Shown here one piece after another: positions 23,374 to 64,000 of a DNA stretch of 64,000 nucleotides. The stretch is taken from NCBI RefSeq assembly GCF_001750725.1, contig NZ_CP017279.1, forward strand, positions 2,170,001 to 2,234,000, given 5' to 3'. The notes under the pieces were generated by a model that saw only the letters and a list, made by a program, of their open reading frames with translations, did no database searches and was not told the origin of the DNA. The position numbers and the translations under genes are program-made. The DNA is from Enterobacter ludwigii (GTDB taxonomy: Bacteria > Pseudomonadota > Gammaproteobacteria > Enterobacterales > Enterobacteriaceae). Numbering within the stretch: position 1 is the stretch's first letter; every line of letters begins with the position of its first letter.

Positions 23374-23880
23374 TCACCCGGCAAACGACTCAGTGACGGC
23401 GTCGACAAGTTCCATCTCTTCCCGGCTCAGGAGCATTTCGATATTGACGAGAATAATCATGCGGGTATCGAGTACGCCCAGCCCAAGCAGATAGCGTCCG
23501 GACAGCACCGAGGCCACGTCCGGCGTCGGTTTAATCTGCTCGACGCCCATCGACAGAACATCAACCACGCCGTCGACAACAATGCCCACCACCCTATCGT
23601 TGAGATTAAGCACAATCACGACCGTACTTTCATCCTGCGAGGGGTCGGGCAGATCAAACCGCACGCGCAAATCGACGATCGGGACAATCACGCCGCGCAG
23701 ATTGGTTACACCGGTAATGAAGTTTGGCGCGTTTGGAATTCGCGTCAGGCGATCGCAGCCGCGGATCTCCTGCACTTTCAAAATATCGATGCCATATTCT
23801 TCGTCTCCCAGGCGGAATACCAGGTACTCCTGAGCAATGGCATCGGTACTGGTCGGTTTTGTGGCGGTTGCTACGGTCAT
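23374..23880 (-). CDS. cheW: Chemotaxis coupling protein CheW
   Basis: 168 residues (E. coli 167). Couples receptors to the CheA kinase in signalling arrays. The CheW domain is complete: [45 protein letters not shown], and the [11 protein letters not shown] strand. Overlaps cheA by 4 bases. It is the last gene of this operon; in E. coli the tar-tap-cheRBYZ genes would follow. Confidence 0.96.
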
Positions 23881-25811
23881 GCTTTTACCCCCTCCCTTCG
23901 GGGTTGTGGAACGTTGAGCGTTGAGAGTTCAACCACGTCAAGGATCAGCGCCACGCTGCCATCGCCAAGGATGGTTGCCGCTGAGACGCCCGGAACTTTG
24001 CGGTAGTTCTGTTCAAGATTTTTCACCACGACCTGCTGCTGACCAATAAGCTGGTCAACCCACAGCGCATAGCGGCAGCCCGCGCTTTGTACGATCACAA
24101 CAATGCCGTCATCGGCGGGTACCTCTCCCGCCACGCTGAGCCGCTGGCGCAGCAGAACGAGTGGCAGATACTCACCGCGCACCTGCAACAACCGTTCCTC
24201 ACCGACAAAGCGGCACAGCATCTCTTCGTTCGGACGGAGCGATTCCATTACCGCGCCCAGCGGCAGGACATAAATCTCGTCGCCCACTTTCACCAGCATG
24301 CCGTCGAGAATTGCCAGCGTCAGCGGCAGAATAATGCGAATGGTGGTGCCCGTGCCCGGCGTGGAAAGCACATCGACGTGCCCGCCCATCGCCAGAATAT
24401 TTCGTCGTACCACGTCCATGCCGACGCCGCGTCCGGAGACGTCCGTCACGCTTTCTGCGGTCGAGAAACCGGCGGCAAAAATCAGCATCCACACGTCTTC
24501 ATCGCTCATTGAGTCGCTGAGCGTCATCCCCTGGGCTCGTGCTTTGGCGAGAATTTTCTCGCGATTAAGTCCTGCGCCGTCGTCGCTGACTTCAATCACG
24601 ATGTTGCCACCATGGTGCTCAGCCGACAGCGTCAGATTCCCGACCTCAGATTTCCCTTTTGCCACGCGCATCTCTTTCTCTTCGATGCCATGGTCCAGGC
24701 TGTTACGTACCAGATGCGTGAGCGGGTCGATGATGCGTTCAATCAGGCTTTTATCCAGCTCGGCGGAGCCGCCCTTGAGCGTCAGTTCAACCTGTTTATT
24801 CAGGCGGGACCCGAGGTCATGCACCAGGCGCGGGAAGCGGCTAAAGACATAATCCATGGGCATCATACGGATTGACATCACCGACTCCTGCAGCTCGCGG
24901 GTATTGCGCTCCATCTGCGCAACACAGCCGGAAAGCAGATCGTAGCTGGCCGGGTCGAGCGTTCGCGATAGCTGCGAGAGCATGGCCTGTGTGATGATCA
25001 GTTCGCCGACCTGATTAATAATCTGATCGACCTTACTGACCGCCACACGAATGCTACCCGACTCCTGATTTGCCGCACGAGGCGCCGCGGCGATTTTTCT
25101 GGCCACCGGGGCGGGCGTAGGTTTTTCCGCAACAGGCGGCGACGCAATGGCTTGCGTCTGAGCGGCTGGTGTGACCTTAATCTGTTCAGCCTCCAGCACA
25201 AAGCAAAGCACGGCAGTGATGTCGTCGGCCGACGCACTGGTCATCAGCGTTACCGTCAGGCTGTCCGCGCTGGCCTCCGCGGCCACCAGCTCCCCTATAT
25301 GGGTTAGCTCTTCACGTAACATCGCCTGCTCGTGGGCATCCACGTTACTGAGCGTTATCAGTAGCGCGACGTCTTCGTCTGCCCCCACCTGCGGGACGGG
25401 TTCCGGGGCTGGCGCAACGGATGCTTTACTGTCCAGCGCGATCTCTCTTAAAGCCTCGCAAATATAGCGAAAGCTTGCTTCATCAGGCTCCTGCGAAGAC
25501 TGATAGGCTTCCAGCTGCGCTTGCATAATGTCCTTACATTCCAGAAAAAGGTTAACGATCGTCCGGCTCAACGCGCGCTCACCGGCCCTCGCCTGATCGA
25601 GCAAGTTCTCGAGAAGGTGCGTTGTCTCCTGTAATGCGCTAAAACCGAAGGTGGCTGCGCCCCCTTTCAGTGAGTGCGCGGCGCGAAAAATGGCGTTCAG
25701 TTGCTCCTGGTCGGGAGAAGCAACATCGAGCTGTAAAAGCTCCTGTTCCATTTCGGCAAGCAGTTCTTCTGCTTCGGTAAAGAAGATCTGCGAGAAATCA
25801 TTCATGTCCAT
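23877..25811 (-). CDS. cheA: Chemotaxis histidine kinase CheA
   Basis: 644 residues with all five CheA domains: P1 with phosphorylated His46 ([16 protein letters not shown]), P2 (about 150-225, for CheY/CheB docking), dimerisation P3, kinase P4 ([28 protein letters not shown]) and CheW-like P5. A Met near residue 95 could give a short form as in E. coli. It overlaps motB by 14 bases. Its usual phosphorelay partner CheY is not encoded in the window. Confidence 0.97.
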
Positions 25812-26703
25812 CGGTATAACCCTGCACGTTTTGCAGATTCACGTCGCTCAGCACGCTTTCTGCACGCTGTGACTGCGTATCTTCCAGACGGATCGCCTGC
25901 TCTTTTGAACGACTGAGGATCAGGATGCTGATTCGGCGGTTCACCGCACTGTCAGGAGACGTATTTTCCAGCGGCATGCGGCTGGCGGTACCAATGACGC
26001 GCAGAAATCGCTCGTCATTCAACCCGGCGCGAACCAGCACGCGCCTGGCCGCGTTAGCACGTCCGGCGGAGAGTTCCCAGTTACTGTATCCTCCCTCACC
26101 GCCGGCATACGGCAGCGAGTCGGTATGTCCCGTCAGGCTGAGCGCATTGGGCAACTCCTGAAGCAGCGGCACCAGCGCCTGCAGGATCCCGTTCATATAG
26201 GATTCTGGCAGCTCGCTTCCCACACGGAACATAGGGCGATCCTGCGAGTCCGTAATCTGAATCAACAGCCCGTCGTTGGTGAGGTTCAGCAGGATATTTG
26301 ACTTGAAATTGTTAAGCCGCGGATCCGTTTCAATCATCCGCTGTAGCTTATCTTTGGCCTGCTGAAGACTTTCAAAGCGCTTATGCTTATCGAGGGCATT
26401 GATCTGGCTTTTAAACACGTCCCCCTGCTGCTTGAGGATGTCATCCCCGCCGCCGGGGATGACGCTGTCGCTCAGGCTGGTTTTATTGCCATTGGACATG
26501 GAGGGCTTGATCGGCATACGGAAATAATCGGCAATCAGCTCTCTCTCCATGTCCGTGGACTGCGCCAGCAGCCACATCACCAGAAAGAAGGCCATCATGG
26601 CGGTCATAAAGTCCGCATAGGCAATCTTCCACGTCCCGCCGTGGTGCGCGTGTTTTTTCTTTTTGCGCTTACGTGAAATGATGACAGGCGTGACGTTTTT
26701 CAT
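25798..26703 (-). CDS. motB: Flagellar stator protein MotB
   Basis: 301 residues. One N-terminal membrane helix carrying the proton-binding Asp31 (WKIAYADFMTAMMAFFLVMWLL), then an OmpA-like peptidoglycan-binding domain (LSLTGHTDSLPY, NWELSAGRANAARRVL). Anchors the stator to the cell wall. ATGA overlap with motA. Confidence 0.97.
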   Translation of the reverse strand: MKNVTPVIISRKRKKKKHAHHGGTWKIAYADFMTAMMAFFLVMWLLAQSTDMERELIADYFRMPIKPSMSNGNKTSLSDSVIPGGGDDILKQQGDVFKSQINALDKHKRFESLQQAKDKLQRMIETDPRLNNFKSNILLNLTNDGLLIQITDSQDRPMFRVGSELPESYMNGILQALVPLLQELPNALSLTGHTDSLPYAGGEGGYSNWELSAGRANAARRVLVRAGLNDERFLRVIGTASRMPLENTSPDSAVNRRISILILSRSKEQAIRLEDTQSQRAESVLSDVNLQNVQGYTDGHE

Positions 26704-27596
26704 GCTGCGTTGTCCGCCGATTTAGTTTTCAGCGTGGCGTTGGATTTCACCTCACGAACGTGCTCCTCCAGCTCCTCAAACGACGGACGTTCACTGGTAA
26801 AAATGGTCTTACGGCCGAATTCCACAGCAATTTGCGGGGCATAGCCGTTCAGGCTGGAAAGCAACGTCACTTTAATACACTGTAAAATCTTGACCTGATC
26901 GGAGCTCTTCTGGCGCAGCAGCGTTGCCAGCGGTAACACAAAGCCATAGGCAATCAGAATGCCGAGGAAGGTACCCACCAGCGCATGGCCAATCAACATT
27001 CCCAGCTCTGCGGCAGGGCGATCGGCGGACCCCAGGGCGTTCACCACCCCCATCACCGCTGCGACAATCCCAAACGCCGGAAACGCGTCGCCCACGGTAT
27101 TCAGGCTGTGCGCCGGAACTTCCAGCTCCTCTTCACAGGTTTCGATCTCTTCATCCATTAAGGCTTCGATTTCGTGTGAATTCATGCTGCCGCCAATCAT
27201 CAGGCGGAAATAGTCGAGGATAAAGTTGCTGAGCATCGGGTCGCTCATCAGGCGCGGATAAGCATTAAAAATGTCGCTGTTCTGCGGATCTTCAATGTCC
27301 TTCTCAAGTGACATCAGCCCGTGAACACGGCTTTGCGACAGCAGCAGGAACATTAACGCCATCAGGTCCATATAGACCGCTTTGTTGTACCGTTTACCGA
27401 CAAACAATTTCACCAGCGCTTTGCCGGTGGCTTTGAGTGATTTGACGTTGTTGCCGACGATAAAGGCACCGACCCCGGCACCGCCGATAATCAGCAGCTC
27501 CAGCGGCTGGAACAGCGACATAATATTGCCGCCGGAAAGGATAAAACCACCAAAAACGGTCAGTATGACAACAAGATAGCCAACAATAACTAACAC
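26700..27596 (-). CDS. motA: Flagellar stator protein MotA
   Basis: 298 residues, four membrane helices with a large cytoplasmic loop. Arg90 and Glu98, which contact FliG in E. coli MotA, are at the same positions (SQSRVHGLMSLEKD). Proton-driven type, not sodium PomA. Start is GTG at 27596 after AAGGAGAGA. It lies 84 bases downstream of flhC; I found no good sigma28 promoter in that gap, so it may be read from flhDC. Confidence 0.96.
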   Translation of the reverse strand: MLVIVGYLVVILTVFGGFILSGGNIMSLFQPLELLIIGGAGVGAFIVGNNVKSLKATGKALVKLFVGKRYNKAVYMDLMALMFLLLSQSRVHGLMSLEKDIEDPQNSDIFNAYPRLMSDPMLSNFILDYFRLMIGGSMNSHEIEALMDEEIETCEEELEVPAHSLNTVGDAFPAFGIVAAVMGVVNALGSADRPAAELGMLIGHALVGTFLGILIAYGFVLPLATLLRQKSSDQVKILQCIKVTLLSSLNGYAPQIAVEFGRKTIFTSERPSFEELEEHVREVKSNATLKTKSADNAA

Positions 27597-27622
27597 ACTC
27601 TCTCCTTTAACTTTATTCGACC

Positions 27623-27643
27623 GATGCCGGTCATCCCGGCATC
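27623..27643 (-). other. Hairpin in the flhC-motA gap
   Basis: Inverted repeat GATGCCGG (27623-27630) and CCGGCATC (27636-27643) with a 5-base loop, not followed by a T run. It may be an RNA-processing or attenuation site that separates flhDC from motAB-cheAW expression. Confidence 0.5.
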
Positions 27644-27680
27644 AGGTAAACGCCATCTTGCGCATAGCCGCCGTTCAGGT

Positions 27681-28256
27681 TTACGCCGTCATGATTTCCG
27701 GGGCGGCAAAGGTTCCACGCAACCCGGAATGGCTCACCTGGGATTTTTTAAGCGCACGCGATGGCGGGCTGCACAAACTGCAGGTAAATGGATTTTTAAT
27801 AAATTCCGTGGTAACGATAAAACCGCCGCCACACGTACTGCAGGCTTTGCGGGAAATAATGCCGCAGTCGATAAAACGTAATAATGTCCAGGCACGCGTC
27901 AGCCCCAGGACCGGCTTCTCATCAGCACAGGTGCTACATTGCTCAAGATAAAGACGATAGGTCTTCATCAGCATTTCAATTGAACGGCCCTGCTCGGTCT
28001 TTTTCAGATACAGATAAATGTTGTAGAACATGGATGAGTGGATATTCTGTTCCCAGGACATAAACCAGTCTTCCGAAAAGGGCAGCATACCTTTCGGCGG
28101 CGGACAACCACGCAACTCTTTATATAATCGTAAAAGACGACGGCGGCTCAGCGACGTTTCAGATTCCAGTACCTGCATTCTTGCGCCGAGTGAAATTAAC
28201 CCCATCGCGATGTTGATTTCGTCAATTTCCTGCAGCAGACTTTTTTCACCACACAT
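27681..28256 (-). CDS. flhC: Flagellar master regulator subunit FlhC
   Basis: 191 residues; with FlhD it forms the FlhD4C2 activator of early flagellar genes. ETSLSRRRLLRLYKELRGCPPPKGMLPFSEDWFMSWEQN is highly conserved, and the four zinc cysteines are present in CSTCGGGF and CSLCSPPS. Start at 28256 (MCGEKSLLQE, compare MSEKSIVQE), one base after the flhD stop. Sequence is clearly diverged from E. coli FlhC outside the core, fitting a second flagellar system. Confidence 0.95.
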   Translation of the reverse strand: MCGEKSLLQEIDEINIAMGLISLGARMQVLESETSLSRRRLLRLYKELRGCPPPKGMLPFSEDWFMSWEQNIHSSMFYNIYLYLKKTEQGRSIEMLMKTYRLYLEQCSTCADEKPVLGLTRAWTLLRFIDCGIISRKACSTCGGGFIVTTEFIKNPFTCSLCSPPSRALKKSQVSHSGLRGTFAAPEIMTA

Positions 28257-28257
28257 A

Positions 28258-28608
28258 TTATGCCTCCTCCGCTGCAGCCGCAGTTTCTTCGCTAAGCCCA
28301 TTCAGAAGATTGGTCGACAAAATAATGCCCGTGTGAATCTGTTGTAGCGCTTCAATACGAGAATCTTTGGTGAGATTTTCAATGACAACTTCATCGTCCA
28401 CGCGCAGACGACAAATAAGCTGGTTCGTTGTTGCCAGTTTCATTAACTGCGGCAACGAAAGCTCTTTAAGATTGTCAATGGTTCCCTCGGACAGTCCGAG
28501 GCGAAAACCGGCCGCAAATTTATCCTGGCGAATAAGCTGCTGCGCCAGCAGTAAATAGGACAGGTTGATATCATGGATATTCTGCAGATACTCGTCGAAA
28601 TTGGACAC
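28258..28608 (-). CDS. flhD: Flagellar master regulator subunit FlhD
   Basis: 116 residues. DINLSYLLLAQQLIRQDK and DSRIEALQQIHTGIILSTNLLN match FlhD; intermediate parts are diverged. Start is GTG at 28608 with GGGAG upstream. Together with flhC it heads the leftward operon. Confidence 0.94.
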   Translation of the reverse strand: MSNFDEYLQNIHDINLSYLLLAQQLIRQDKFAAGFRLGLSEGTIDNLKELSLPQLMKLATTNQLICRLRVDDEVVIENLTKDSRIEALQQIHTGIILSTNLLNGLSEETAAAAEEA

Positions 28609-28967: not shown

Positions 28968-29693
28968 TTATCTTGAAGACGATTCCATCCGGCTTCTCAA
29001 TCTTTTGAGTGCCAGACTGTGCAACTGACTCACACGCGTTTCCGTGATGCCGAACACCAGCCCAATCTCTTTCATGTTCATATCCTGAAGATAATAAAGC
29101 TGAAGTAAGACCTGCTCTCGTTCAGGTATGTACTGCAAATGTTCTGTAATTTGCTCAATTAAATTTTGCCTGACAGCATGATGGACAGGATTAAGCGACT
29201 CATTTTCATCGTCGCAGGACTCCCAGCTGTCGGAAAAATTCTCCTGTAACTCATCGATAGAATACATTTGGCTGTTGTTATTATCCGCCAGCATTTGCTG
29301 AAACTCTTTTAGCGACACGCCCATACGCCCGGCAATATCCGCTTCGGTGGCCTCCCCCCCTTTTTCCTGCTCGATTTGTTGAATAATACTGACAATTTCT
29401 CGCGTATGCGTTCTTACCCGTCGCGGGACCCAGTCACTTTCTCTCAACTCATCTAACAATGCCCATTTTACGCGTTGTGTTATCCACGCGCTGAGCGCTA
29501 TTCCTTTTTTCGGATCGAAGGTTTCTACCGCGTTTAAAAAACCCATCGAACCTGCCTGAATCAAATCATCCAGCTCCACGCTGGCAGGAAGCCGCTTATG
29601 TAGACGCAATGCTTCCTGCCGCACAAGATAATGATATTTTGACCAGACGACTGTTTTGTCTTCCAGCCCTTCGGCTGTATATATACCATCCAC
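28968..29693 (-). CDS. fliA: Flagellar sigma factor FliA (sigma28)
   Basis: 241 residues with sigma regions 2 (LPASVELDDLIQAGSMGFLNAVETFDP), 3 (about 105-140) and 4 (YIPEREQVLLQLYYLQDMNMKEIGLVFGITETRVSQLHS). It directs RNA polymerase to late flagellar promoters. Region 2.4, SAWITQRVKWALLDELRESDWVPRRVR, differs from E. coli [27 protein letters not shown] at -10 contact positions, in line with the altered promoter motif in this cluster. Start is GTG. It sits directly upstream of flhDC, not next to fliC, and fliZ is absent. Confidence 0.94.
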   Translation of the reverse strand: MDGIYTAEGLEDKTVVWSKYHYLVRQEALRLHKRLPASVELDDLIQAGSMGFLNAVETFDPKKGIALSAWITQRVKWALLDELRESDWVPRRVRTHTREIVSIIQQIEQEKGGEATEADIAGRMGVSLKEFQQMLADNNNSQMYSIDELQENFSDSWESCDDENESLNPVHHAVRQNLIEQITEHLQYIPEREQVLLQLYYLQDMNMKEIGLVFGITETRVSQLHSLALKRLRSRMESSSR

Positions 29694-29851: not shown

Positions 29852-31480
29852 TTAAAAGGTTTCCCACTGCGCAAGAGCAGAATCATCTTTTTGACGCTGT
29901 GGTCTACTGGATACAGGCAATACTTTTGCAGCGGCACTGCCTTCATTCAGCCTGAATTGTGAGACCAGTTTTTCCAGGGAATCAGATTGTGCTTCAAGAT
30001 CACCGGCGGCGAGGGCCGCCTCTTCAACCATCGCGGCGTTTTGCTGCGTCACCAAATCCATTTCATTTACCGCTTGCGAAATCTGATTAATCCCCGCGCT
30101 CTGTTCATCAGATGCAGAGGTGATCTCGCCCATAATTTGGGTCACCTGCGCCACCGATGTCACAATTTCCTGCATCACGTTACTGGCCTGCCCGACCTGG
30201 CGTGAACCGGTATCAATATTATTGACGCTGGTATTGATGAGCTGATTAATCTCTTTGGCAGCGTCCGCGCTGCGTTTAGCCAGATTACGCACCTCTTCTG
30301 CAACCACGGCAAAACCACGCCCCTGTTCACCGGCGCGTGCTGCTTCTACCGCCGCGTTCAGGGCAAGAATATTGGTCTGGTTCGCAATGCTGTCGATTAC
30401 GCCGTTAATGTCGGCGATCTGTCGGGAACTGGTGGTGATCTGCGCCATGATTTGCTCAAGACTGTGCATGACTTCGCCACCGTTATGGGCATTGGTACTG
30501 GCGCTTTCCGCCAGCTCACGGGCCGCATGCGCGTTATCGGCATTCTGACGCACGGTAGTTTTGATCTGCTCCATGCTGGCCGCTGTCTCCTGCAGCGCGG
30601 CCGCCTGCTCTTCCGTACGGGAAGAGAGATCGTTATTACCGTGGGCAATTTCCTGGGCGTTACTGTGAATGCGCTGCACGCTTTCACGAATGCCCAGAAT
30701 GGTGCTGGTCAGGGAAGTGCGCATCGTTTCCAGCTCGGACAGCATGCTGCCAATTTCATTCTGGCTTCCGCTTTCGATCGCCTGACTCAGATCGCCCGCT
30801 GCCACGCGACGCAGCGTCTCCACCGTGGTTTCCATACGACGGACCAGGGTATTGCGCAGCCAGAAGCGAACGGCAAACAGCATTCCCACACCGAGCAGAA
30901 TCACGACCAGCCCAACGCCGAGCATAATCTTGTAGCCACGCTCTGATTCATGAATATAACTTTCATTCAGGCGGGCACTGGCATCCGTATACTGCTCAAC
31001 CTTATTACGCAGCTCCGTGCGCAGGTTCATGTCGTGCTCCAGTGAGCCGGTATAGCCTGTCGGATTGTTCAGGTAGCCAAGCTTCGCTTCTGCCGCTTTG
31101 TAGACTTCGTTAAACGCCGCATTCACTTCCGCCGCAAGACGACTCTCCTCCGGCGTATTGAACGGCGATGCCATAAAGTCATCCATATTCCGGCGAGCAA
31201 ATTTCACGACATTTTGCGTGTGTGTCGTCACGTTCTGCGAGACCGGATTACCCATCGCAGCCTGGAGCATTAAGCCGTTGGTGTTGGCCATTACGGCGCT
31301 GATGTTATAGACCGCATCACGCATCTGATCGTTATTTTCAGAGGCGACAACAATACGTTTAAAATTATTGTTATTTTTGACGGCGTCATAAACTGAATAG
31401 ACGGTAATACCAAACAGCAAGGCAGCAAACAGCCCAATAATAAGGCTGACCGCGGTATAGATTTTAAGTTTCGTTAACAT
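29852..31480 (-). CDS. Methyl-accepting chemotaxis protein with CheR pentapeptide
   Basis: 542 residues in Tar/Tsr layout: TM1 (about 7-30), four-helix periplasmic sensor, TM2 (about 186-208), HAMP, and a full cytoplasmic hairpin ([36 protein letters not shown]). It ends in QWETF, the tail that tethers CheR and CheB in high-abundance receptors. Ligand unknown; the sensor domain has no recognisable Asp or Ser pocket. It is the gene before fliA on the same strand. Confidence 0.95.
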   Translation of the reverse strand: MLTKLKIYTAVSLIIGLFAALLFGITVYSVYDAVKNNNNFKRIVVASENNDQMRDAVYNISAVMANTNGLMLQAAMGNPVSQNVTTHTQNVVKFARRNMDDFMASPFNTPEESRLAAEVNAAFNEVYKAAEAKLGYLNNPTGYTGSLEHDMNLRTELRNKVEQYTDASARLNESYIHESERGYKIMLGVGLVVILLGVGMLFAVRFWLRNTLVRRMETTVETLRRVAAGDLSQAIESGSQNEIGSMLSELETMRTSLTSTILGIRESVQRIHSNAQEIAHGNNDLSSRTEEQAAALQETAASMEQIKTTVRQNADNAHAARELAESASTNAHNGGEVMHSLEQIMAQITTSSRQIADINGVIDSIANQTNILALNAAVEAARAGEQGRGFAVVAEEVRNLAKRSADAAKEINQLINTSVNNIDTGSRQVGQASNVMQEIVTSVAQVTQIMGEITSASDEQSAGINQISQAVNEMDLVTQQNAAMVEEAALAAGDLEAQSDSLEKLVSQFRLNEGSAAAKVLPVSSRPQRQKDDSALAQWETF

Positions 31481-31555: not shown

Positions 31556-32449
31556 TCACATATTAAACAGATTCATCTTCTGCATATTTTTGTAGACGTA
31601 CATAGAGGCATTAAAGGCGAGCTCGGACATCTGTGACTCCGACACCAGCGTCACCAGCATGCTGGTATCGGCGCCGATGGCATCCTGCACTTTGACAATG
31701 GTGTCGTTAATCAACACGTCTCCGGTGAGATCCAGCGCGTCAAGTTGCTGCAGGTTCGTCCCCAGTTCGGCCTGGGCTTTGCCAAGGCGGTCAATACCCG
31801 CATCGATGGCGTTGCTGGCCGCGCTAAGTGCCGCATCCAGCATGGCGTCATCAATCGGCTCCATCGTTAATGCGGCGACGGCATCGTTCAATACCCTAAA
31901 AATATCATCAAATATCTCATCGCCGAGATGGCCCGTTTGCATTTCCGTTCCATCGGCAACGGTCTGTGTACGCGCTTCATTACCGCCACGATAATTACCG
32001 ACTTCATCAAAAGCAGGCGTATCGGTTTTAAATCCGGAGAAAATATAGCGGCCGCTACTGTCACGACTGTTTGCTAAATCCAGCAGATTTTCGCGGATCC
32101 CTTTTATCTCTTCACCCAGTGCCCGACGATCTTCATCAGAATAGGTATCGCTTTTTGCCGCAATGATTTTTTCTTTCAGGGTGGTTGTCATAAGATTACC
32201 GACACCGTTCAGAATATTGTCCTGAAACTCCAGTGCGCTGCGCGCGCGGGAGCGCACGCTGCTGTACATCTCAAGCTTCGCCAGCGCGTCCTGATGTTTT
32301 ACCGCATCGGTTGCGGCGGTCGGGTCGTCTGAGGCTTTGAGTAGCGTTTTACCTGCTGACATCCGCAGATAAGCGTCGTTACTCTGACTCATGCGCTTTG
32401 TCATCGACTCCGAACTTTGCTTGTACATATAAAGCGTACTTAATCGCAT
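31556..32449 (-). CDS. flgL: Hook-filament junction protein FlgL (HAP3)
   Basis: 297 residues (E. coli 317). Flagellin-like N-terminus (MRLSTLYMYKQSSESMTKRM) and C-terminus (AFNASMYVYKNMQKMNLFN). Joins FlgK to the filament. Of two adjacent ATGs the one at 32449 has better distance from AAGGA. It follows flgK by 10 bases. Confidence 0.94.
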   Translation of the reverse strand: MRLSTLYMYKQSSESMTKRMSQSNDAYLRMSAGKTLLKASDDPTAATDAVKHQDALAKLEMYSSVRSRARSALEFQDNILNGVGNLMTTTLKEKIIAAKSDTYSDEDRRALGEEIKGIRENLLDLANSRDSSGRYIFSGFKTDTPAFDEVGNYRGGNEARTQTVADGTEMQTGHLGDEIFDDIFRVLNDAVAALTMEPIDDAMLDAALSAASNAIDAGIDRLGKAQAELGTNLQQLDALDLTGDVLINDTIVKVQDAIGADTSMLVTLVSESQMSELAFNASMYVYKNMQKMNLFNM

Positions 32450-32459
32450 CATCTTTTCC

Positions 32460-34175: not shown

Positions 34176-34202
34176 TCATCGGTGATTCAAAAAATCTCTA
34201 AA
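34176..34202 (-). promoter_or_regulatory. Sigma28-type promoter of flgKL
   Basis: On the minus strand: TTTAGAGA, 11 bases, ACCGATGA. Spacing equals the sigma28 consensus (TAAAGTTT-N11-GCCGATAA). From the spacer to the -10 the sequence is nearly identical to the flgM promoter (TTTTTTGAATC vs TTTTGTGAATC, both then ACCGATGAAA). Confidence 0.75.
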
Positions 34203-36253: not shown

Positions 36254-36260
36254 GGTCTTA

Positions 36261-54441: not shown

Positions 54442-54710
54442 CAGCCGATCACATAAGGAATGCTGGCGAACACTGCGCGGGTATATTCAATAAAGATTTT
54501 CATCATCCACGGGCCGAGCGCCACCGCGATCCCGACAATCATCAGGATTTTCGGAATGAACGTCATGGTCATTTCATTGACCTGCGTCGCGGCCTGCAAA
54601 ATGCTGATAATCAGGCCGGTGACCAGCGCCGCGACCAGCAACGGGCCTGATACCATCAGCCCCACCTTGATGGCCTGCATGCCAATCACCATGACACTTT
54701 CAGGGGTCAT
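54441..54710 (-). CDS. fliQ: Flagellar export protein FliQ
   Basis: 89 residues, identical in length to E. coli, two membrane helices; SVMVIGMQAIKVGLMVSGPLLVAALVTGLIISILQAATQVNEMT is typical. Confidence 0.96.
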   Translation of the reverse strand: MTPESVMVIGMQAIKVGLMVSGPLLVAALVTGLIISILQAATQVNEMTMTFIPKILMIVGIAVALGPWMMKIFIEYTRAVFASIPYVIG

Positions 54711-54719
54711 CTGGGTCTC

Positions 54720-55460: not shown

Positions 55461-55828
55461 CGATCACCTCCCTGACGATACGTCTGGCGCAGCTTTTCCA
55501 GCATCAGCGGAAATGTTGCCGCCGGCGCCGTTGTCTGCGGAGCATTTTCCGGACGCGGCTGCGTCGTGAGACACGCAATCTGCGAGGCGGTAACGCCCAG
55601 CACCAGGCGCTGCTCGCCCACATCCACCACGACCAGCCGCTCTCGCGGCCCCAGCGACTGCGTTGCCACCAGAGTTATCGTGCCCTGAGCCGGGTTCAGA
55701 CGACGCGTCAGTCCACTGCGGCGGACGGCCCAGGCCAGTACGACCATCAGCAGGACAATCAGGGCCAGCGCGCCGGTTACCGTCATCAGTACCGAGCCAG
55801 TGGCCGGGAGGGAATCTGTTGCGTTCAT
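55457..55828 (-). CDS. fliO: Flagellar export gate assembly protein FliO
   Basis: 123 residues, one N-terminal membrane helix ([26 protein letters not shown]) and a cytoplasmic part with [24 protein letters not shown]. Helps FliP assemble. TAATG overlap with fliN. Confidence 0.93.
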
Positions 55829-56211
55829 TAGCGGCTCAGGCGATGCATGCGCTCAGACGGGGTTATAATATCCGTGATACGGATACCGAATTTATCGGAA
55901 ACCACCACCACTTCACCCTGCGCAATCAGATAACCGTTGATCAAGATATCCAGCGGTTCACCCGCCAGCCCGTCCAGCGAGACCACCGAGCCCTGGCTTA
56001 AGCGCAGCAGCTCTTTGATGGTCATCTTGGTGCGTCCCAGCTCAACGGTCATTTTTACCGGGATATCCAGGATCAGGTTCATCTCATCAGAAAATTGTGG
56101 TGCACCCATTGTGTCGGTAATTCCCGCAGCGTGCTGTTCGGTCATGGCCTCACCCCAAAGATTATCAATGGACTGATCGTCAGAACCCGATGAGGTGTTC
56201 ATGTCGCTCAT
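55828..56211 (-). CDS. fliN: Motor switch protein FliN
   Basis: 127 residues (E. coli 137). SpoA domain: LDIPVKMTVELGRTKMTIKELLRLSQGSVVSLDGLAGEPLDILINGYLIAQGEVVV. Lower C-ring component. Confidence 0.96.
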   Translation of the reverse strand: MSDMNTSSGSDDQSIDNLWGEAMTEQHAAGITDTMGAPQFSDEMNLILDIPVKMTVELGRTKMTIKELLRLSQGSVVSLDGLAGEPLDILINGYLIAQGEVVVVSDKFGIRITDIITPSERMHRLSR

Positions 56212-56218
56212 GGGGAAA

Positions 56219-57211
56219 TTACTCCTTGTTTAATGATAGTAATGAAGGCTGAATCATCTGCTCGACCTTCAGGGCATATTGATTATTTACGGCACCGTAT
56301 CTAGCCGTGAAGACCGGCACGCCACCCACGCTGGCTTCGATCAGCTCCTGTTTATCCAGGCCGATGATGTCGCCTTTCTTCATCTGCATGACGTTCGACA
56401 GCCGGGTGCCGATATCCGCGAAGCGCGCCGCAAGTTCGAGCTCCGTTTCGCGCATCTGGCTTGCGAGCATGCCGCGCCAGTGGGTATCTTCATGCCGGGA
56501 ATTGTCCATCGGCGGATTACTCAGCAGCTCGCGCAGCGGCTCGATGGTGCTGAAGGGAATACAGATATTGAACTCCCCCCGGTGCGAGCCAATCTCCACT
56601 GAAAACGGCGTGGTCACCACCACATCGTTTGGCGATGAGGTGATATTGGTGAATTTCACCTGAATTTCAGAACGGATATATTCCGTTTTGATTTTATAGA
56701 TAGAGCTCCAGGCAAATTCATACGCCTCACGCGCCATCGACAACATGCGGTGGATCACGCGCTGCTCGGTGGGGGTGAATTCGCGTCCATCCGCTTTTGT
56801 TGGAAAGCGTCCGTCGCCACCAAACAGGTTATCCACGGCCATAAACACCAGGCCCGGTGAAAATGCCATCAGCGAGGTTCCGCGCAGCGGGTTAAGGTGC
56901 AGCAGGTTCAGGTTTGTCGGCACCGGCAGGTTACGGGCAAACTCGTGATACGGCTGAATCTTGATATTTCCCGCCGTAATATCCGGGCTACGGCGCAGCA
57001 AATTAAACAACCCCATCCGAAACTGACGGGCAAAACGTTCGTTTATAATTTCCAGCGAATGCAGACGTTCACGAATAACACGACGCTGGGTATGCGGATC
57101 GTACGGTTTTATGCCGCCATCGCTCCGGCTGTTATGCAGCTCACTGCTGCTCTCTGCATCTGCGTTCAGCAGCCGGTCGATCTCATCCTGGGATAAAAAG
57201 CTGTCAGCCAT
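56219..57211 (-). CDS. fliM: Motor switch protein FliM
   Basis: 330 residues (E. coli 334). N-terminal LSQDEIDRLLN is the CheY-binding motif, so the motor should respond to phospho-CheY even though cheY is not in the window. Middle domain with NLLHLNPLRGTSLMAFSPGLVFMAVDNLFGGDGRFPTK, C-terminal SpoA domain. Confidence 0.97.
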   Translation of the reverse strand: MADSFLSQDEIDRLLNADAESSSELHNSRSDGGIKPYDPHTQRRVIRERLHSLEIINERFARQFRMGLFNLLRRSPDITAGNIKIQPYHEFARNLPVPTNLNLLHLNPLRGTSLMAFSPGLVFMAVDNLFGGDGRFPTKADGREFTPTEQRVIHRMLSMAREAYEFAWSSIYKIKTEYIRSEIQVKFTNITSSPNDVVVTTPFSVEIGSHRGEFNICIPFSTIEPLRELLSNPPMDNSRHEDTHWRGMLASQMRETELELAARFADIGTRLSNVMQMKKGDIIGLDKQELIEASVGGVPVFTARYGAVNNQYALKVEQMIQPSLLSLNKE

Positions 57212-57216
57212 AATAA

Positions 57217-57723
57217 TTACCGCAGAATAAATTCATTAATGAGCACGTCAGTGACGCGAATGGACTGGTTAAACGCCAGCGGTTTATTTAGCTCGTTTTG
57301 AATCGTTGTAATCAGATGGCGTTTTCCTTCATCCGTGGCTAAATCTTCATACGTCTGATGGGTCAGCAACATAAATATTCGGCTACGGTATTCCGGTAAA
57401 TATTTTTCCAGCACAGTAAGCGACTTCTGTTCTGCCACACGAATAGACAGCCCCAGATATAAAACACGATCCGATTCGTTTGCCGTCGGTTTCAGGCTCA
57501 CGGTAAAGGTATTCATCGAGGCATACAGAGGCTCAACGGGCACTGGTGCTGGCGGCTCTTTAACCGCGCCTTCCACTGCCACATCTGCGGGTTTCGCGAA
57601 TTTCATTTCCCAGAACAGGTAGCCGGAAATTCCGCACGCCGCAACGGCAGTCAAAAACAGGAACGTCATCAGAAGCGAACGAGAACCTCCGCCGCTGGCG
57701 ACCTTTTTATTTTTATTACTCAT
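57217..57723 (-). CDS. fliL: Flagellar basal-body protein FliL
   Basis: 168 residues (E. coli 154): short cytoplasmic tail, one helix (LLMTFLFLTAVAACGISGYLFW) and a periplasmic domain (YASMNTFTVSLKPT, LYLGLSIRVAEQK). Supports stator function. First gene after the fliK gap. Confidence 0.95.
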   Translation of the reverse strand: MSNKNKKVASGGGSRSLLMTFLFLTAVAACGISGYLFWEMKFAKPADVAVEGAVKEPPAPVPVEPLYASMNTFTVSLKPTANESDRVLYLGLSIRVAEQKSLTVLEKYLPEYRSRIFMLLTHQTYEDLATDEGKRHLITTIQNELNKPLAFNQSIRVTDVLINEFILR

Positions 57724-57852: not shown

Positions 57853-58902
57853 TCAGGCGAAAGTATTTATTCCGTATATATTGCCCGGTGTGGTTGTTAA
57901 CAGTGTTGGGACGATTTCGGTATCAGCCTGCTCATCTTCGCCTTCATGCTGATGTGCATGCTCACCCTGCGCCGTCTCGCCGCGTTCACCTGTCGCGCCC
58001 TGGCCGTCCGCGCTGACGTTTGCCTGGCCCAGCTGGATACCCGAATCCGCCATGGCTGCACGCAGTTGCGGCATGGCCTGCTCCATCGCCTGACGAACAT
58101 GCGCATGATCGCTGACGATATGGATCTGCGCCTGGTCGTGCTGCATACGTAATGAAATATGCAGCGCGCCCAGTTCTTCCGGATGCAGACGGATCTCCGC
58201 ACTGTGCAGGCCGTTGCGACTAAACAGCGCAATATGCTGGCTAACAGACTGCTTCCACTCTGGCGTCTCGGGTGGATGGTTGACGGTCACCACCTGCTGT
58301 GGCGCATGGGCGACACTGGTACGCACTGCGGCAGGGAGCGGTGCAGCGTTGGGAACAGACGCGAACTCAGGCGCTACCGCAACGTCATTCGTAACGGGAA
58401 TGGGTTGTGAAAGCGGCGCAGCACTGTTTGCGGCTGGCGTTTTGTCAGTAGCCACCAGCGCTGTCGGCGCAGCAGCACTTTGTGCAGCGGGCTTATCACC
58501 GGACACCGTCGCCACCGGTTTAGCTGAATCAGGCCGCGCGGGCATCTCACTCCCGCTCACACTGCGCATAACCAGTTGCTGTAACTGCCACAATGGATTC
58601 TCTTCGCTCTCGCCATCACCCGACATCGCACCCGCCAGAACGTCTGTTATCTGTGGGTTCGCTGCCAGTAACTCACCGTCGACTGCGGGGAGGTCGGTCA
58701 TTGTCTGCCTGAGCGTCTCCTGCAACTGTCCTTCTACCGGTAACGCTGCCGCCAGCGCCTGAGGATCGAGACCGGGAAATACCTGGATCAGTTCCGTCAG
58801 TTTGTCATCCATCGCAAGGCTAAAACCTTCATCAGCAACCCTTCCCGCCTTTGGTTTACCCTGCGTTCCACCCAATAGCAGGGTGGCGATATCAATATTC
58901 AT
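57853..58902 (-). CDS. fliK: Hook-length control protein FliK
   Basis: 349 residues (E. coli 375). Ala/Pro-rich central part, typical of the molecular ruler, and a conserved C-terminal domain with LHSAEIRLHPEELGALHISLRMQHDQAQIHIVSDHAHVRQAMEQAMPQLRAAMADSGIQLG that switches export specificity. ATGA overlap with fliJ. Confidence 0.94.
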   Translation of the reverse strand: MNIDIATLLLGGTQGKPKAGRVADEGFSLAMDDKLTELIQVFPGLDPQALAAALPVEGQLQETLRQTMTDLPAVDGELLAANPQITDVLAGAMSGDGESEENPLWQLQQLVMRSVSGSEMPARPDSAKPVATVSGDKPAAQSAAAPTALVATDKTPAANSAAPLSQPIPVTNDVAVAPEFASVPNAAPLPAAVRTSVAHAPQQVVTVNHPPETPEWKQSVSQHIALFSRNGLHSAEIRLHPEELGALHISLRMQHDQAQIHIVSDHAHVRQAMEQAMPQLRAAMADSGIQLGQANVSADGQGATGERGETAQGEHAHQHEGEDEQADTEIVPTLLTTTPGNIYGINTFA

Positions 58903-59348
58903 AGTCTCTCTCTTTTCTGTCCGGCACGCTGGGCAAATTCATCCATCAGCTTTTGTTCATGCCGGCTTTCAACAAGCGCCTGCGCCGTCGCGCGACGGTC
59001 AATAAGGGTTTCAAATGCGTTCAGACGTTGTTTGTTTTGCATCCAGTTCTGTTTGACCTGGTCCACCGCCTTTTCACAGGCGTTAACGTGACCTTCCTGC
59101 TGTCTGACGACCTGTTTCAGCGATAAAATAAACGACTGATGATTCACCAGATCCGCCACCGACATGCCGTTGCCCATCATTCCCTGGCGCAGGGATTGCT
59201 GGTATTCCCGCTCGTAATTCTGCAATTGCTCATGCTGAACCACCGCTTGCTGTAGCTGCTGCTGAACGCCACCCAACGCGCGGGTGGTTTCCGTCAGCGT
59301 CTCTTGCGCCATGTCGCGCAGCAGAGCCATGGGATTATTAACGTTCAT
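58899..59348 (-). CDS. fliJ: Flagellar export chaperone FliJ
   Basis: 149 residues (E. coli 147), long coiled coil (ETTRALGGVQQQLQQAVVQHEQLQNYEREYQQSL). Sits in the FliI ring and links it to FlhA. Between fliI and fliK as in E. coli. Confidence 0.93.
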   Translation of the reverse strand: MNVNNPMALLRDMAQETLTETTRALGGVQQQLQQAVVQHEQLQNYEREYQQSLRQGMMGNGMSVADLVNHQSFILSLKQVVRQQEGHVNACEKAVDQVKQNWMQNKQRLNAFETLIDRRATAQALVESRHEQKLMDEFAQRAGQKRERL

Positions 59349-59361
59349 TCGCTCTCCACGA

Positions 59362-60726
59362 TTACGCGTTTAGGTTGGGAAAAAGCCCGCTGAGGGCGCG
59401 GACCGCCTCTTCATAGCCGCTGCGCTCGTGGATCGCCTGGTGGAGAAACGCCTCCAGAGAGGGGTAGCGCTCGATAGCCTGATCGAGTAAAGCGTCGCTT
59501 CCTTTCACGTAAGCCCCCACGCTCACCAGATCGCGGTTACGTTGCCAGGCAGAGAGCAGCTGCTTGAAGCGCTGCACCTGGCGGTACTGCGCGTGCGGGA
59601 TCAGCTCGGTCATGGCGCGGCTGATGGAGGCTTCAATATCGATAGCCGGATAGTGCCCCGCCTCGGCCAGACGACGTGACAAGACAATATGACCGTCGAG
59701 GATCGCACGCGCTGAGTCGGCAATCGGATCCTGCTGGTCGTCCCCTTCCGTCAGTACGGTGTAGAACGCGGTGATAGACCCGCCCCCCTTCACCCCATTA
59801 CCGGTACGTTCCACCAGCGCGGGCAGACGGGCAAAGACGGACGGCGGATAGCCTTTCGTCGCGGGTGGCTCACCAATCGCCAGCGCCACCTCACGCTGCG
59901 CCATGGCATAACGCGTCAGAGAATCCATAATCAGCAGCACGTTCAGGCCGCGTTCACGAAAATCTTCCGCAATGCGGGTGGCATAGACGGCGCCCTGCAT
60001 GCGCAGGATCGGTGATACATCGGCCGGTGCCGCCACCACAACCGCCCGCAACAGCCCCTGCTCGCCCAGGATGTTCTCAATAAAATCTTTTACCTCACGG
60101 CCACGCTCGCCAATCAGTCCGACCACGATGACATCCGCGGTGGTGAAACGTGCCATCATGCCGAGCAACACGCTTTTGCCCACGCCGGAACCGGCGAAAA
60201 GCCCCATACGCTGGCCCCGTCCGACCGTTAAGAGGCCATTGATTGCGCGTACGCCTACATCGAGCACCGTTTTAATCGGGTCGCGATGCAGCGGGTTTAA
60301 CGTGGGCGTAAAAAGCCCGGCGGTCGGTTTACCCGGTGCCGGACGACCATCCAGCGGCCGGCCCTGTGCATCCAGCACGCGACCAAGGAGGTGCGGGCCC
60401 ACGGGCAGTTGCTTGCCGGTATGGCTGTCTGTCTGCAGCGCGTAGATGCGTGCCCCCGGCAAAATGCCGTCGACATGTTCAAGCGGCATCAGATAGAGCG
60501 TCTCGCCGTTAAAGCCCACCACCTCGCTTTCTACCGCAATGATGCCTTTCTCAGTCTGCCGCTCGACAATACAGAGCGCACCGATGGGCAGCTTCAGCCC
60601 TACGGCCTCCATCACCAGCCCGGTGGCACGCGTTAACTTGCCGTACTGACGGTAATCGGGTACCTGAGTCAGTCTCTCCTCGACCCGATCAAGCGTTGAT
60701 AACCATGTTTTTAACTGCTGGCTCAT
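59362..60726 (-). CDS. fliI: Flagellar export ATPase FliI
   Basis: 454 residues (E. coli 457). Walker A AGSGVGKS (178-185), Walker [26 protein letters not shown], and the F1-beta-like fold. Energises export of flagellar subunits. ATGA overlap with fliH. Confidence 0.97.
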
Positions 60727-61427
60727 TGCGAGAGTTCCTCTCGCGCCAGCTGACAGAGCGCCTGCCAGCGTGTTTCCATGCTGGCATCCACTTCAACATC
60801 CGGTGAAACAACCCGACAACCGCCGGCTGCCAGCTGCGCGTCACGATGAAGCGTCCAGCCCATCGCCGTGAGCGTCTCGCCCAGCGCCTGTTCAACCGCC
60901 GGAAACTCTTCCGGGCTGACGTACAGCTGGAACGTGCCATTCAGCAGCGGATCCTGCTTCATGAGGGTGCGGATTTGGGTAACCAGCGCGTGGTTATCCG
61001 CAACACGGATCGAGCCATACAGCTGCTGTACTGCCGTCAGTGACAGCTGGACGAGGCGACCCGGGATCAGGCTGTCGAGGTTTTCCAGCGACAGTTTGAG
61101 GTTGCTCACCCACTCCCCGGCCTGGCGCAGCAGCGCCTGCTGCTCGACGCGCGCCTGTTCGACTCCCTGTGCAAATCCAGCGTCACGGCCCTCTTTTAGC
61201 CCAACTTCATAGCCTTGTTTGCGGCCCTCTTCCTGCCCCTGCTGTTGTCCCTGAGCAAATCCTTGCTGCTCCGCCTGCTTACGCAGGCGCGCCAGTTCTG
61301 CCTTCAGCTGTGCATCCGACTGGGTGTTATCCAGCGTTGGCAGGGGGGGCTCGGCAATATCACCGAGCAGGTTCTCCGGCTGCCAGCTGCGCCATCCCTG
61401 AGCGTTGTTATCATTAAACGTAGGCAT
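60723..61427 (-). CDS. fliH: Flagellar export regulator FliH
   Basis: 234 residues (E. coli 228). Gly/Gln repeats in the middle ([36 protein letters not shown]) give the GxxxG heptads of FliH. Binds FliI and docks it to the C-ring. The ATG at 61427 ([10 protein letters not shown]) follows GGAGG; a TTG 15 bases upstream is less likely. Overlaps fliG by 14 bases. Confidence 0.93.
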
Positions 61428-62400
61428 CGTCGCTGCCTCCAATCAGGATCTCGCCGGACTCGGCCAGACGACGCACCACGTTGAGGATCGTCTTCTGTTC
61501 GGCCTCGACCTGAGACAGACGCACCGGCCCGCGAGAGGCCAGATCGTCGGTCATCAGCTCGGCCTGCCGACGGGACATGTTGCGGAAGAACTTCATACGC
61601 AGCGGTTCGTCTGCCCCTTTCAGCGCCACGATAAGCGTCTCGCTTTCGATTTCCTGCAGCAGACGCTGAATGCTTCGGTCTTCCACATCCACCAGGTTTT
61701 CGAACAGGAACATCTCGTCGATGATTTTCTGCGCCAGCTCGCCGTCGAATTCGCGCACCGCTTCAATAGCAGCCTCTTCCTGCTGAGATTTCATCAGGTT
61801 GAGAATTTCGGCTGCCGGACGTACGCCGCCCATCTTGCTGCGTTTGAGGTTTTGCCCATGCAGCAGGTTATTCAGCACCTCTGTCAGCTCCTGCAACGCG
61901 GCAGGCTGTACACCACCGAAGGTCGCGATACGCAGCATAATGTCGTTACGCTCACGATCGTCGAACTTGCCCAGCACATCCGCAGCCTGATTACGTTTAA
62001 GGTGCACCAGAATGGTGGCGATAATCTGCGGGTGCTCCTCGCGAATAAGATCGAACACCGCCTGCGGATCCATAAAGTTCAGTGTCTCAATACCGTTGGT
62101 TCCCTGATGGGTATCCAGCAGATCTTCGAGCAGCGACGAGGCGCGCTCTTCGCCCAGCGCCTTCACCAGCACGCTGCGCAGATAGTCGTTGGTGTTAAGG
62201 CTCAGCGCGGCATACTCACTGGAATCGTTCTTAAACTCTTCCAGCACCGCAGCCATCTGATCGTGGGTAAAGCCCGCAATATTGACCATGGAGGCGCTGA
62301 TCTGCTTTACCTCGTGGGCGTTGAGGTGTTTAAACACCTCCGCAGCGAGGACATCTCCCAGCGTCAGCATGACGATGGCGCTTTTTTCTGAGGCATTCAT
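61414..62400 (-). CDS. fliG: Motor switch protein FliG
   Basis: 328 residues (E. coli 331). [30 protein letters not shown] at the N-terminus, [25 protein letters not shown] in the middle and the torque helix [36 protein letters not shown] at the C-terminus, with the charged residues that face MotA. TAATG overlap with fliF. Confidence 0.97.
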
Positions 62401-64000
62401 TATTTTGGCTCCTTACTCATCCACTGACGAATAACCAGGGCGATCACGCGTGGCTCCTGCTCCGCCAGCTCACGCAGCTGTTGACCATTGAGTTCGGTAT
62501 CCACCCGCTGCTGCGCGCGGTCGCGCATCTCTTTTTCGGCAGCACGCTTTTTCGCTGCCTGTTGCTCTTCGCGGGCCTCTTTCTCCATCTCCAGACGGCG
62601 AATCGTCGTTTCCTGATGACGGATCCAGGCCGGCTGCACCAGCTTGCGCCACATAATCCAGGCGATAATCGCAATTACCAGGTAACGGGCAATCGCCATA
62701 AGCAGCGTGTAGAAACTTTCCTGCTCCCAGAATGGCGGTACTGGCTCTTCCACCACGCCATTAAAGGCTGAGTTGAGAATGTTGACGCTGTCACCGCGCG
62801 TGGCGTTATAGCCAATCGCCTCTTTCACCAGCGCATTAATGCGGGTGAGCTCCGCCTCGCCGATCGGTCCCGGCTTGCCCTCTTCGCCCTGCGGTAAATG
62901 GTTGATAACCACCGCGACCGAGAGACGCTGGATACGTCCGGCATTGGATTTGGTGTGGGTCAGCGTGCGATCCACCTCAAAGTTCGTCGTTTCATCACTG
63001 CGGTTGTTATAAGGCTGCGCGGGTTCATTGCTGCTCCCGGTGCCTGCGGCTTTCTCTGTTTTGTCATCCGCGGGTGTGTTGAGCGGCTGCGTGATCGGCG
63101 CGGTGGCCGGGGCGGGCGGCGTATTACTCAACGCTCCCGGCACGCCTCCTGCGCCACGGCGGTTACCTTGTTCTGCGAGGCTTGCCTGGCGGCTGCGGAT
63201 TGCCATCTTTTGCGGATCGGCATTTGGCTGATACTGCTCCTGCGTCTGCTCCTGCTCGGTGAAATCAATCTGCGCCGTCACCTGTGCCCGAATGTTTTCA
63301 TCCCCCACCAGCGGTGCAAGAATGCGCTGGATACGCTGCTGATAGTCGCTCTCAATTTCATTGGTGTATTTAAGATGCGCCGTTTGCAGACCGCGCAAGC
63401 CGCTCTGGGTCAGAAGATTGCCGCGCTGATCGACAATGGTGACGCTCTCGGCGGCCAGCCCGGTAACCGCGCTGGAAATAAGATGGGTAATGGCGACCAC
63501 CTGGGCATCATCCAGAGTACGTCCCTGGAGCAGATTGACGGTGACCGATGCGGTCGGTTTTTTCTGTTCGCGCACAAACATCGACGGCTTCGGCGTCGCC
63601 AGATGGACGCGAGCACTCTGAATGGGTCCGAGGTTCTCAATAGTGCGAGCCAGTTCTCCTTCCAGCGCACGCTGATAGTTCACCTGCTCGGTAAACTGGC
63701 TGATGCCAAACTTTTCCTGATCCAGCAATTCAAAGCCTACCGAGCCGCCTTTTGGCAACCCCTGCTGGGCCAGCTTCATGCGCACCTCATGCACCTGCGA
63801 TCCCGGTACCATGATGACGCCACCCGGCGTGTCAATTCGGTAAGGGATATTGAGCTGCGTTAACTGCGCGACAATCGCACCGCCCTCTTCATCACTGATG
63901 TTGCTAAACAGCACCCGGTAATCCGGCTCTTTTGCCCAGAACATCAGGGCGATGATGACGGAAAGCGCCGCGGCGCCGCAAATCACCAGCAAGAGTTTCG
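62400..64000 (-). CDS. fliF: Flagellar MS-ring protein FliF (5' end outside the window)
   Basis: 533 residues visible; the N-terminus lies beyond base 64000. Opens in the first membrane helix ([25 protein letters not shown]), then [66 protein letters not shown], the variable loop, TM2 (about 420-445 of this part) and the FliG-binding tail ending [20 protein letters not shown]. Platform of the basal body. fliE would be expected upstream. Confidence 0.96.

Follow-up and report, generated by a model that had tools for sequence, protein, structure and literature searches.

A second flagellar and chemotaxis locus of Enterobacter ludwigii with putative altered sigma28 promoters and a linked ToxR/ToxS-like regulator pair

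Supernumerary peritrichous flagellar loci of the Enterobacterales, named flag-3 and flag-4, were reportedly described in 2020 by De Maayer and colleagues, who are said to have typed them by gene content and order. Like these loci, the system studied here is a second full flagellar locus with an FlhDC-type master regulator, lying beside the primary one and patchily distributed across genera. It was found in a 64,000-nucleotide stretch of Enterobacter ludwigii DNA (the window; contig NZ_CP017279.1, G000:C1:2170001-2234000, where labels such as G000 denote sampled genomes and G000 is the genome of the window, 4.95 Mb in two contigs and rated 100% complete). With the primary flag-1 system of Escherichia and Enterobacter it shares the same proteins, the FlhDC-FliA-FlgM logic and the chemotaxis genes, but it differs in forming one 48-kb block, in its TTYAG promoters and in having no conserved sigma28 site at motA or the receptor. 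Lateral flag-2 loci are also extra flagellar loci of the genus (16 of 61 genomes, taken as lateral type from a FliF identity of 31-36% to that of the window), whereas the window locus resembles primary systems in encoding FlhDC, and the low FliF identity ruled out a flag-2 assignment. The ToxR/ToxS and VtrA/VtrC pairs of Vibrio resemble a regulator pair of this locus in their winged helix, membrane helix, periplasmic domain and overlapping small partner of the ToxS/VtrC fold, but the pair here stands in an enteric flagellar locus and its partner has hardly any sequence identity (5-10%). Extra flagellar loci in Enterobacterales are known, while the sigma28 promoter switch and the co-component pair tied to the locus look new to us; we know of neither in the flag-3/flag-4 survey.

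By its gene content this locus is a complete and intact supernumerary flagellar and chemotaxis system; we consider it probable that it is self-contained, that its sigma step is insulated in part and that an envelope signal probably acts as its gate. The block, most of which lies at window positions 23374-64000, encodes rod, rings, hook, junction, cap, filament, export gate, ATPase, C-ring and stator, together with FlhDC, FliA, FlgM, FlgN, FliS, FliT, CheA, CheW, CheR, CheB, CheY, CheZ and two full chemoreceptors, and every gene is an open frame. The order is cheW-cheA-motB-motA-flhC-flhD-fliA-mcp-flgLKJIHGFEDCB / flgA-flgM-flgN / fliT-fliS-fliD / fliC / ... / fliR-fliQ-fliP-fliO-fliN-fliM-fliL-fliK-fliJ-fliI-fliH-fliG-fliF. 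An earlier sequence-only reading had claimed that the structural genes from rod to stator lie in one stretch with flhDC, fliA and flgM, and all the families that it named were indeed present as open frames. Of the extent that it gave, 23374..64000, the left part held, but the right end did not, since fliF runs to 64079 and the locus to 71297 in continued window coordinates (about 7.3 kb beyond the window edge, reading onward). The genes beyond fliF2 and outside the window are fliE, cheR, cheB, cheY, cheZ, flhB, flhA and flhE (blastp), so that a second flhBA is located just past that edge.

The second locus is a supernumerary set beside the primary one, with its own FlhDC, FliA and FlgM and a distinct ancestry. 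Two FlhC, two FlhA, two FliC, two FlgL and two FliA were present in G000, and the primary copies are at genome positions 2094254 (FlhC), 2072733 (FlhA), 2149550 (fliC), 949038 (flgL) and 2138357 (FliA). The supernumerary flagellum proposed by the sequence-only reading is thereby borne out by a full primary set including flhDC, fliA, flgM, fliC and flhA, and the two FlhDC/FliA/FlgM circuits that it envisaged in one cell are both encoded, each system having its own flhDC, fliA and flgM. The same reading had set the locus next to a yedA-dcm-yedJ backbone, which agrees with yedI/yedA/dcm/yedJ-like genes at window 497-5129 (DUF808, EamA, C5-methylase and HD families) and with the end of primary fliR at genome position 2165806, which is 4.2 kb to the left of the window and separated from the second locus by 27.6 kb. 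Apart from fliA, all flagellar and chemotaxis proteins of the second locus had a primary-locus partner in the same genome at 28-83% identity (blastp), which speaks against a chance resemblance; the primary fliA, outside the compared stretches, was located separately and is 51% identical to FliA2. The extremes were FliT (28%, partial), FlgM (30%) and CheY (83%), FlgE was 47% identical between the two systems, and FliC2 has 502 amino acids versus 278 in primary FliC.

Beside this comparison, we observed that primary fliA and the short 278-amino-acid fliC are about 10 kb apart (G000:C1:2138357-2149969; L013:2319-9041), with glycosyltransferase- and aminotransferase-looking genes (by eye) between them, which suggests that the primary flagellin may be modified.

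Two gene orders were seen among the secondary loci: the window type, kept in 11 other genomes (fliT was not detected in G437), and another type in 5 genomes (G313, G134, G121, G062 and G381). The sigma28-related features of the window locus are as follows.

27681-28301, minus strand: flhC2, master regulator (NF009365 and NF002783, for flhC2/flhD2, above cut-off)
28258-28608, minus strand: flhD2, master regulator (same two families)
28968-29693, minus strand: fliA2, sigma28 with changed W77, R92 and region 4.2 TET (PRK06986; 51% to primary FliA)
32460-34103, minus strand: flgK2 (TIGR02550 and TIGR02492 listed for flgL2/flgK2)
34176-34202, minus strand: putative FliA2 promoter of flgK2, TTTAG-N15-CCGATGA (exact in 12/12 loci; genome scan)
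42289-42315, plus strand: putative FliA2 promoter of flgM2, TTTAG-N15-CCGATGA (exact in 10/12 loci, 1 or 2 mismatches in the remaining two)
42347-42658, plus strand: flgM2, anti-sigma28 (TIGR03170 and TIGR03824 listed for flgA2/flgM2)
43252-45487, minus strand: fliT2, fliS2, fliD2 (PRK10548 and PRK08032 below cut-off, TIGR00208 above; blastp)
45530-45556, minus strand: putative sigma28-type promoter of fliD2 (-35 TAAAC, -10 CCGATAG; promoter scans)
45699-45725, plus strand: putative FliA2 promoter of fliC2, TTTAG-N15-CCGATGA (footprint and scans)
45791-47299, plus strand: fliC2, 502-amino-acid flagellin (Flagellin_N/C)

The primary promoters of G000 (fliC, fliD, flgM, flgK, motA and tar) had 0-2 mismatches to TAAAG-N15-CCGATAA, with TAAAG, TAAAC or TCAAG at -35. 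Footprints of 12 loci revealed another conserved element, TTTAG-N15-CCGATGA, upstream of fliC2, flgM2 and flgK2; the fliC2 -35 was TTYAG in all 12 loci, of which four were exact to TTTAG/CCGATGA and two had a 16-base spacer, and the fliC -35 was likewise TTYAG in 13 further secondary loci from other genera. Over the resulting 25 secondary loci (window included), TTYAG was present at 69 of the 71 sites found (fliC 25/25, flgM 22/23, flgK 22/23). Four of the 75 gene slots were not found (flgM of G121 and G193, flgK of G313 and G193), the two misses were G103 flgK and G313 flgM (no credible site), and fliC of G009, missed by the fixed-spacer scan, was counted from the footprint alignment with its 16-base spacer. 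In systems not belonging to the secondary sigma clade (G000 primary, G087, G307, G077 and G222), TTYAG occurred in none of the 12 best fliC/flgM/flgK sites, two of which were not credible promoters, with G077 and G222 placed relative to the clade without their FliA.

At genome scale, the exact TTTAG-N15-CCGATGA pattern had three matches in G000, all at the fliC2, flgM2 and flgK2 promoters. It had 32 matches in 13 locus-bearing genomes, 27 of them inside the locus (one by contig only, in G040), and one match in 10 genomes without the locus; the reversed control pattern had 16 in the 23 genomes. The looser TTYAG pattern was less clean, with five matches in G000 (two outside the locus), 48 in the 13 genomes and 9 in the 10, versus 26 for its reversed control. 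All 23 genomes contained the canonical exact pattern, but no secondary stretch that was read did. TAAAG-N15-CCGATAA was not found before fliC2, flgM2, flgK2 or fliD2. A description of the secondary promoters as canonical sigma28 sites was also rejected: a 16-position consensus gave 18 sites at four or fewer mismatches in the locus versus 3-11 in five mononucleotide shuffles, the sole 3-mismatch site was inside the fliA coding sequence, and two 4-mismatch sites were those of fliD2 and flgM2.

As a separate observation, a TTCAG-N15-CCGATGA site (G018:C15:341257-341283) is located 52-78 bases upstream of a 711-amino-acid gene (L129:10070-12205, minus strand) beside flhE2; the gene looks autotransporter-like by eye, and similar sites exist in G033 and G040. 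A surface protein may therefore be among the targets of the second sigma28.

FliA residues (numbering of the E. coli chain in PDB 6pmi) divided along the same line. Residues 77 and 92 were W77 and R92 in 26/26 secondary rows and G77 and S92 in 14/14 primary rows, and residues 217-219, which we take to align with the sigma70 residues that read the -35, were TET in 25 of the 26 secondary rows (SEV in G400) and GES in all 14 primary rows. The secondary rows include FliA of G040, whose promoters lie outside the promoter count. FliA of G087 and G307 had W77 and R92 with GEP instead, and their fliC promoters were TAAAG; this combination points to region 4.2 rather than residues 77/92 as the determinant of the -35 preference. 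As expected beforehand, TTYAG occurred at 7/7 sites found in G193, G356 and G446 (two not found) and TAAAG at 1/1 in G307, although these points are not independent, since G356 shares its genus with G190 and G446 with G326, and G193 clusters with the latter two. We infer that FliA1 reads TTYAG less well than FliA2.

The stator and chemotaxis genes at the left end of the locus are given below.

23374-23880, minus strand: cheW2 (NCBIfam PRK10612, 233 bits, under the cut-off of 260; 62% to the primary copy)
23877-25811, minus strand: cheA2 (PRK10547 above cut-off; 61% to the primary copy)
25798-26703, minus strand: motB2, stator (PRK09041 and TIGR03818 listed for motB2/motA2)
26700-27596, minus strand: motA2, stator (same two families)
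29852-31480, minus strand: mcp1, Tar-like chemoreceptor (TarH, HAMP, MCPsignal)

Promoter scans of the window-type loci gave no conserved sigma28-type site upstream of motA2, mcp1 or cheA2, unlike primary motA and tar, each of which has one. The flhD-flhC-motA-motB-cheA-cheW run overlaps throughout save for 84 bases between flhC and motA, and the fliE-cheR-cheB-cheY-cheZ-flhB-flhA-flhE run has gaps of at most 18 bases. By this layout, the stator and chemotaxis genes of the second locus would be made with the early genes. The flhC2-motA2 gap (window 27597-27680) contains an inverted repeat, TGCCGG...CCGGCA, kept in most window-type loci, which could be a terminator or a regulator site.

Between the receptors and fliR, the window locus contains two genes whose frames overlap by 35 bases.

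52360-53166, plus strand: ToxR-like membrane-bound winged-helix regulator, 268 amino acids (PF00486; PDB and fold matches)
53132-53656, plus strand: ToxS/VtrC-fold periplasmic partner, 174 amino acids (fold match)

In the regulator, an OmpR-type winged helix is followed by a hydrophobic helix and then by a domain in which two cysteines are invariant. Among PDB sequences it best matched the ToxR DNA-binding domain (E 1.9e-5), and the best fold match of its model was ToxR on ompU DNA (E 6e-6), with other OmpR-family domains tied by Z; the periplasmic part had none among the listed fold matches, a list filled by the DNA-binding domain, which excludes nothing. The partner consists of a hydrophobic helix and a beta domain, and its five best chains by Z were VtrC and ToxS (8.4-9.6, next 5.3; 7-8 is the typical best of this tool for models without a clear match). 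No Pfam family was found for the partner, even at E 10, and a PDB sequence search gave no real match to it. In two respects the pair agrees with a ToxR/ToxS (VtrA/VtrC) co-component system, namely in a regulator with an OmpR-type winged helix, one membrane helix and a periplasmic domain, with an adjacent partner of the lipocalin-like ToxS/VtrC fold.

The occurrence of the pair followed that of the locus. All 11 other window-type stretches contained it, and none of the 5 stretches of the other type was found to; of the 17 named loci, 12 had the partner close to fliR, and within the genus a ToxS-like gene occurred in 11/61 genomes, exactly the locus carriers (Fisher p 2e-12). In comparisons of the window with four genomes, the ratio of nonsynonymous to synonymous substitution rates (dN/dS) was 0.13-0.19 for the ToxR-like and 0.12-0.21 for the ToxS-like gene, the latter changing rapidly yet under constraint. 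Most likely the pair ties assembly of the second flagellum to a cue from the envelope or a surface, and it would control the second flagellar locus. Among 392 family-sample genomes the partner occurred in four, and one of these, G128 (30%), had no flagellar gene recognised beside it; the distant G128 pair (L163:8643-10702) adjoins a regulator whose helix-turn-helix looks LuxR-type by eye.

Trees of three proteins place the window system apart from the primary one, as the sequence-only reading would have it; of the two outcomes by which that reading would have fallen, a genome lacking further flagellar genes and a grouping of these proteins with primary Enterobacter ones, neither was observed. 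A FliF tree built by a quick method split off 28 primary-type rows by a branch with 100% support in the Shimodaira-Hasegawa-like approximate likelihood ratio test, and the window was not among them; row L064, mis-extracted (branch length 10), was kept in this tree, and seven genus loci judged duplicates of named loci were removed by script. In the FliA tree, the 26 secondary rows formed one side of a 100/99 branch. The FlhC tree agreed, with window FlhC outside the primary, on several long branches and one primary row only. A FliF2 search of the 61 genus genomes found an intact copy at 82-100% in 10 and a two-frame copy in one (G017), and genus FliF identities to that of the window fell at 31-36%, 52-55% (primary; one 49% fragment) and 82-100%. 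Named relatives were 17 loci of 58-94% identity in Enterobacter, Lelliottia, Citrobacter, Pantoea, Erwinia, Buttiauxella, Kosakonia and another Enterobacteriaceae record.

A LysR (psrA-like) gene adjoins 9 of the 10 genus loci read, window included, and mtfA is the far flank in 8 of those 9 (in G014 the mtfA end only), not being seen in the G033 stretch. G039 has the locus with different flanks; G025 lacks the locus and has only 1.9 kb between its psrA and mtfA flanks, and G047 is also without it. In the window versus four genomes, dN/dS was 0.01-0.02 for fliG and 0.03-0.07 for fliA, a sign of purifying selection, with many dS values above 1. Two origins were rejected. For a plasmid origin, a tblastn search of 72,556 plasmid records with FliF2 returned 115 records, all below 60% identity; for a tRNA-linked insertion, no tRNA was found in the window, and the three neighbouring stretches scanned had only two tRNA-Asn genes, on the right side at distances of about 14 and 18 kb.

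Several single genomes deserve mention. In G017 (C3:3354771-3356448), secondary fliF is in two overlapping frames and the remaining locus genes were found by tblastn. In G018 and G045 the primary and the window type of FliF occur together with a third, of 32-35% identity, that is taken to be lateral. In G193:C32 (2.8 Mb, 94% complete) the only FliA and FliF found were of the secondary type, which may serve alone there, and in the second locus of G024 (L070) part of fliC2 matches twice, so that two flagellin genes may be present.

By homology, the second flagellum would be of the FlhDC-run peritrichous kind, and it is presumably made. In the mechanism that we propose, an envelope or surface cue would act on the ToxR/S-like pair, FlhDC2 would start its own cascade, FlgM2 would hold FliA2 until hook completion, as in known systems, and FliA2 would then drive a reduced late set of fliC2, flgK2, flgM2 and probably fliD2. 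The FliA2 promoter would be marked by TTYAG instead of TAAAG at -35 and, in the window type, by CCGATGA instead of CCGATAA at -10, presumably matched by the fixed G217/S219 changes, and TTYAG promoters would be poorly read by primary FliA. The two circuits would share the cell while partly insulated at the sigma step, because of the changed promoters, the FliA2 changes and the stator and chemotaxis genes without a conserved sigma28 site; the changed promoter signature and the locus-bound regulator pair both strengthen the case for a self-contained circuit. For the more specific proposal of an orthogonal sigma28, in which GES to TET (with W77/R92) would read TTYAG and not TAAAG so that the cascades do not cross-fire late genes, and a dedicated ToxR/ToxS-like switch would time the second flagellum in the window type, we see the chances as evenly divided. 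If this were true, one cell could run two flagella without mixing their controls. Keeping two homologous flagellar hierarchies apart is a general question for dual systems; moreover, a sigma28 pair with matched recognition-helix and -35 changes offers possible orthogonal sigma/promoter parts, and the locus-bound pair is a candidate signal input for timing the second flagellum.

Some observations weigh against partial insulation. The fliD2 promoter keeps its TAAAC -35 in 12/12 window-type loci (TAAAC/CCGATAG, 2 mismatches to canonical), which speaks against strict insulation, the CCGAT core and 15-base spacing are common to both promoter classes, and FliA R74, D81 and R84, which we take to be the residues reading the -10, are identical in all 42 rows. 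These would fit an ordinary supernumerary flagellum with uninsulated circuits, in which each FliA reads both classes and TTYAG is simply a weaker or alternative sigma28 promoter. We think this unlikely, given a -35 difference kept at nearly all sites found over many genera, fixed changes in the sigma recognition helix and the absence of the exact canonical site from every secondary stretch read.

That the locus is a recently acquired or decaying extra, silent and retained by chance, appears very improbable to us: its patchiness in the genus (11/61 genomes), the fliF in two pieces in one genome and the locus-free sites of G025 and G047 would suit it, but all frames of the window locus are open, dN/dS is very low, promoters are conserved and the psrA-like neighbour recurs. 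Possible, though doubtful, is that the ToxR/ToxS-like pair is a passenger regulating other genes, for example the adjacent DoxX or receptor genes, and not the flagellum. ToxR/ToxS-type pairs control many functions, and the related pair of G128 stands without a flagellar gene recognised among its nearest frames; against this, the pair accompanies every window-type stretch read, was not found in the 5 stretches of the other type and occurs in the genus only with the locus. We retain the self-contained, partly insulated system gated by an envelope signal as the preferred reading. The remaining features of the locus within the window are listed below.

31556-32485, minus strand: flgL2 (TIGR02550 and TIGR02492 listed for flgL2/flgK2)
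34212-41362, minus strand: flgJ, flgI, flgH, flgG, flgF, flgE, flgD, flgC, flgB (FlgJ TIGR02541; blastp 34-75% to the primary flg locus)
41588-42286, plus strand: flgA2 (TIGR03170 and TIGR03824 listed for flgA2/flgM2)
42676-43119, plus strand: flgN2 (Pfam FlgN, E 4e-11)
48192-50096, minus strand: mcp2, dCache chemoreceptor (full length in 3/11 other window-type loci)
50140-51303, minus strand: membrane protein of 387 amino acids derived from a methyl-accepting chemotaxis protein, without the CheA-coupling tip
51417-51908, minus strand: DoxX-like membrane protein (PF07681; in 9/11 other window-type loci)
53662-57723, minus strand: fliR, fliQ, fliP, fliO, fliN, fliM, fliL (blastp to primary; FliN and FliL families)
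57853-62400, minus strand: fliK, fliJ, fliI, fliH, fliG (FliK and FliI families; blastp)
62400-64000 in the window, to 64079, minus strand: fliF2 (TIGR00206)

The minus-strand frame at 42655-43242, opposite flgN2, is not the flgN gene. The 387-amino-acid protein derives from a dCache chemoreceptor that has lost its first cache lobe as well as the tip, and was kept at 387-392 amino acids in 10 loci (the window and 9 of the 11 others), with dN/dS of 0.06-0.09 in four comparisons; it is probably unable to signal to CheA in the usual way, yet strongly constrained.

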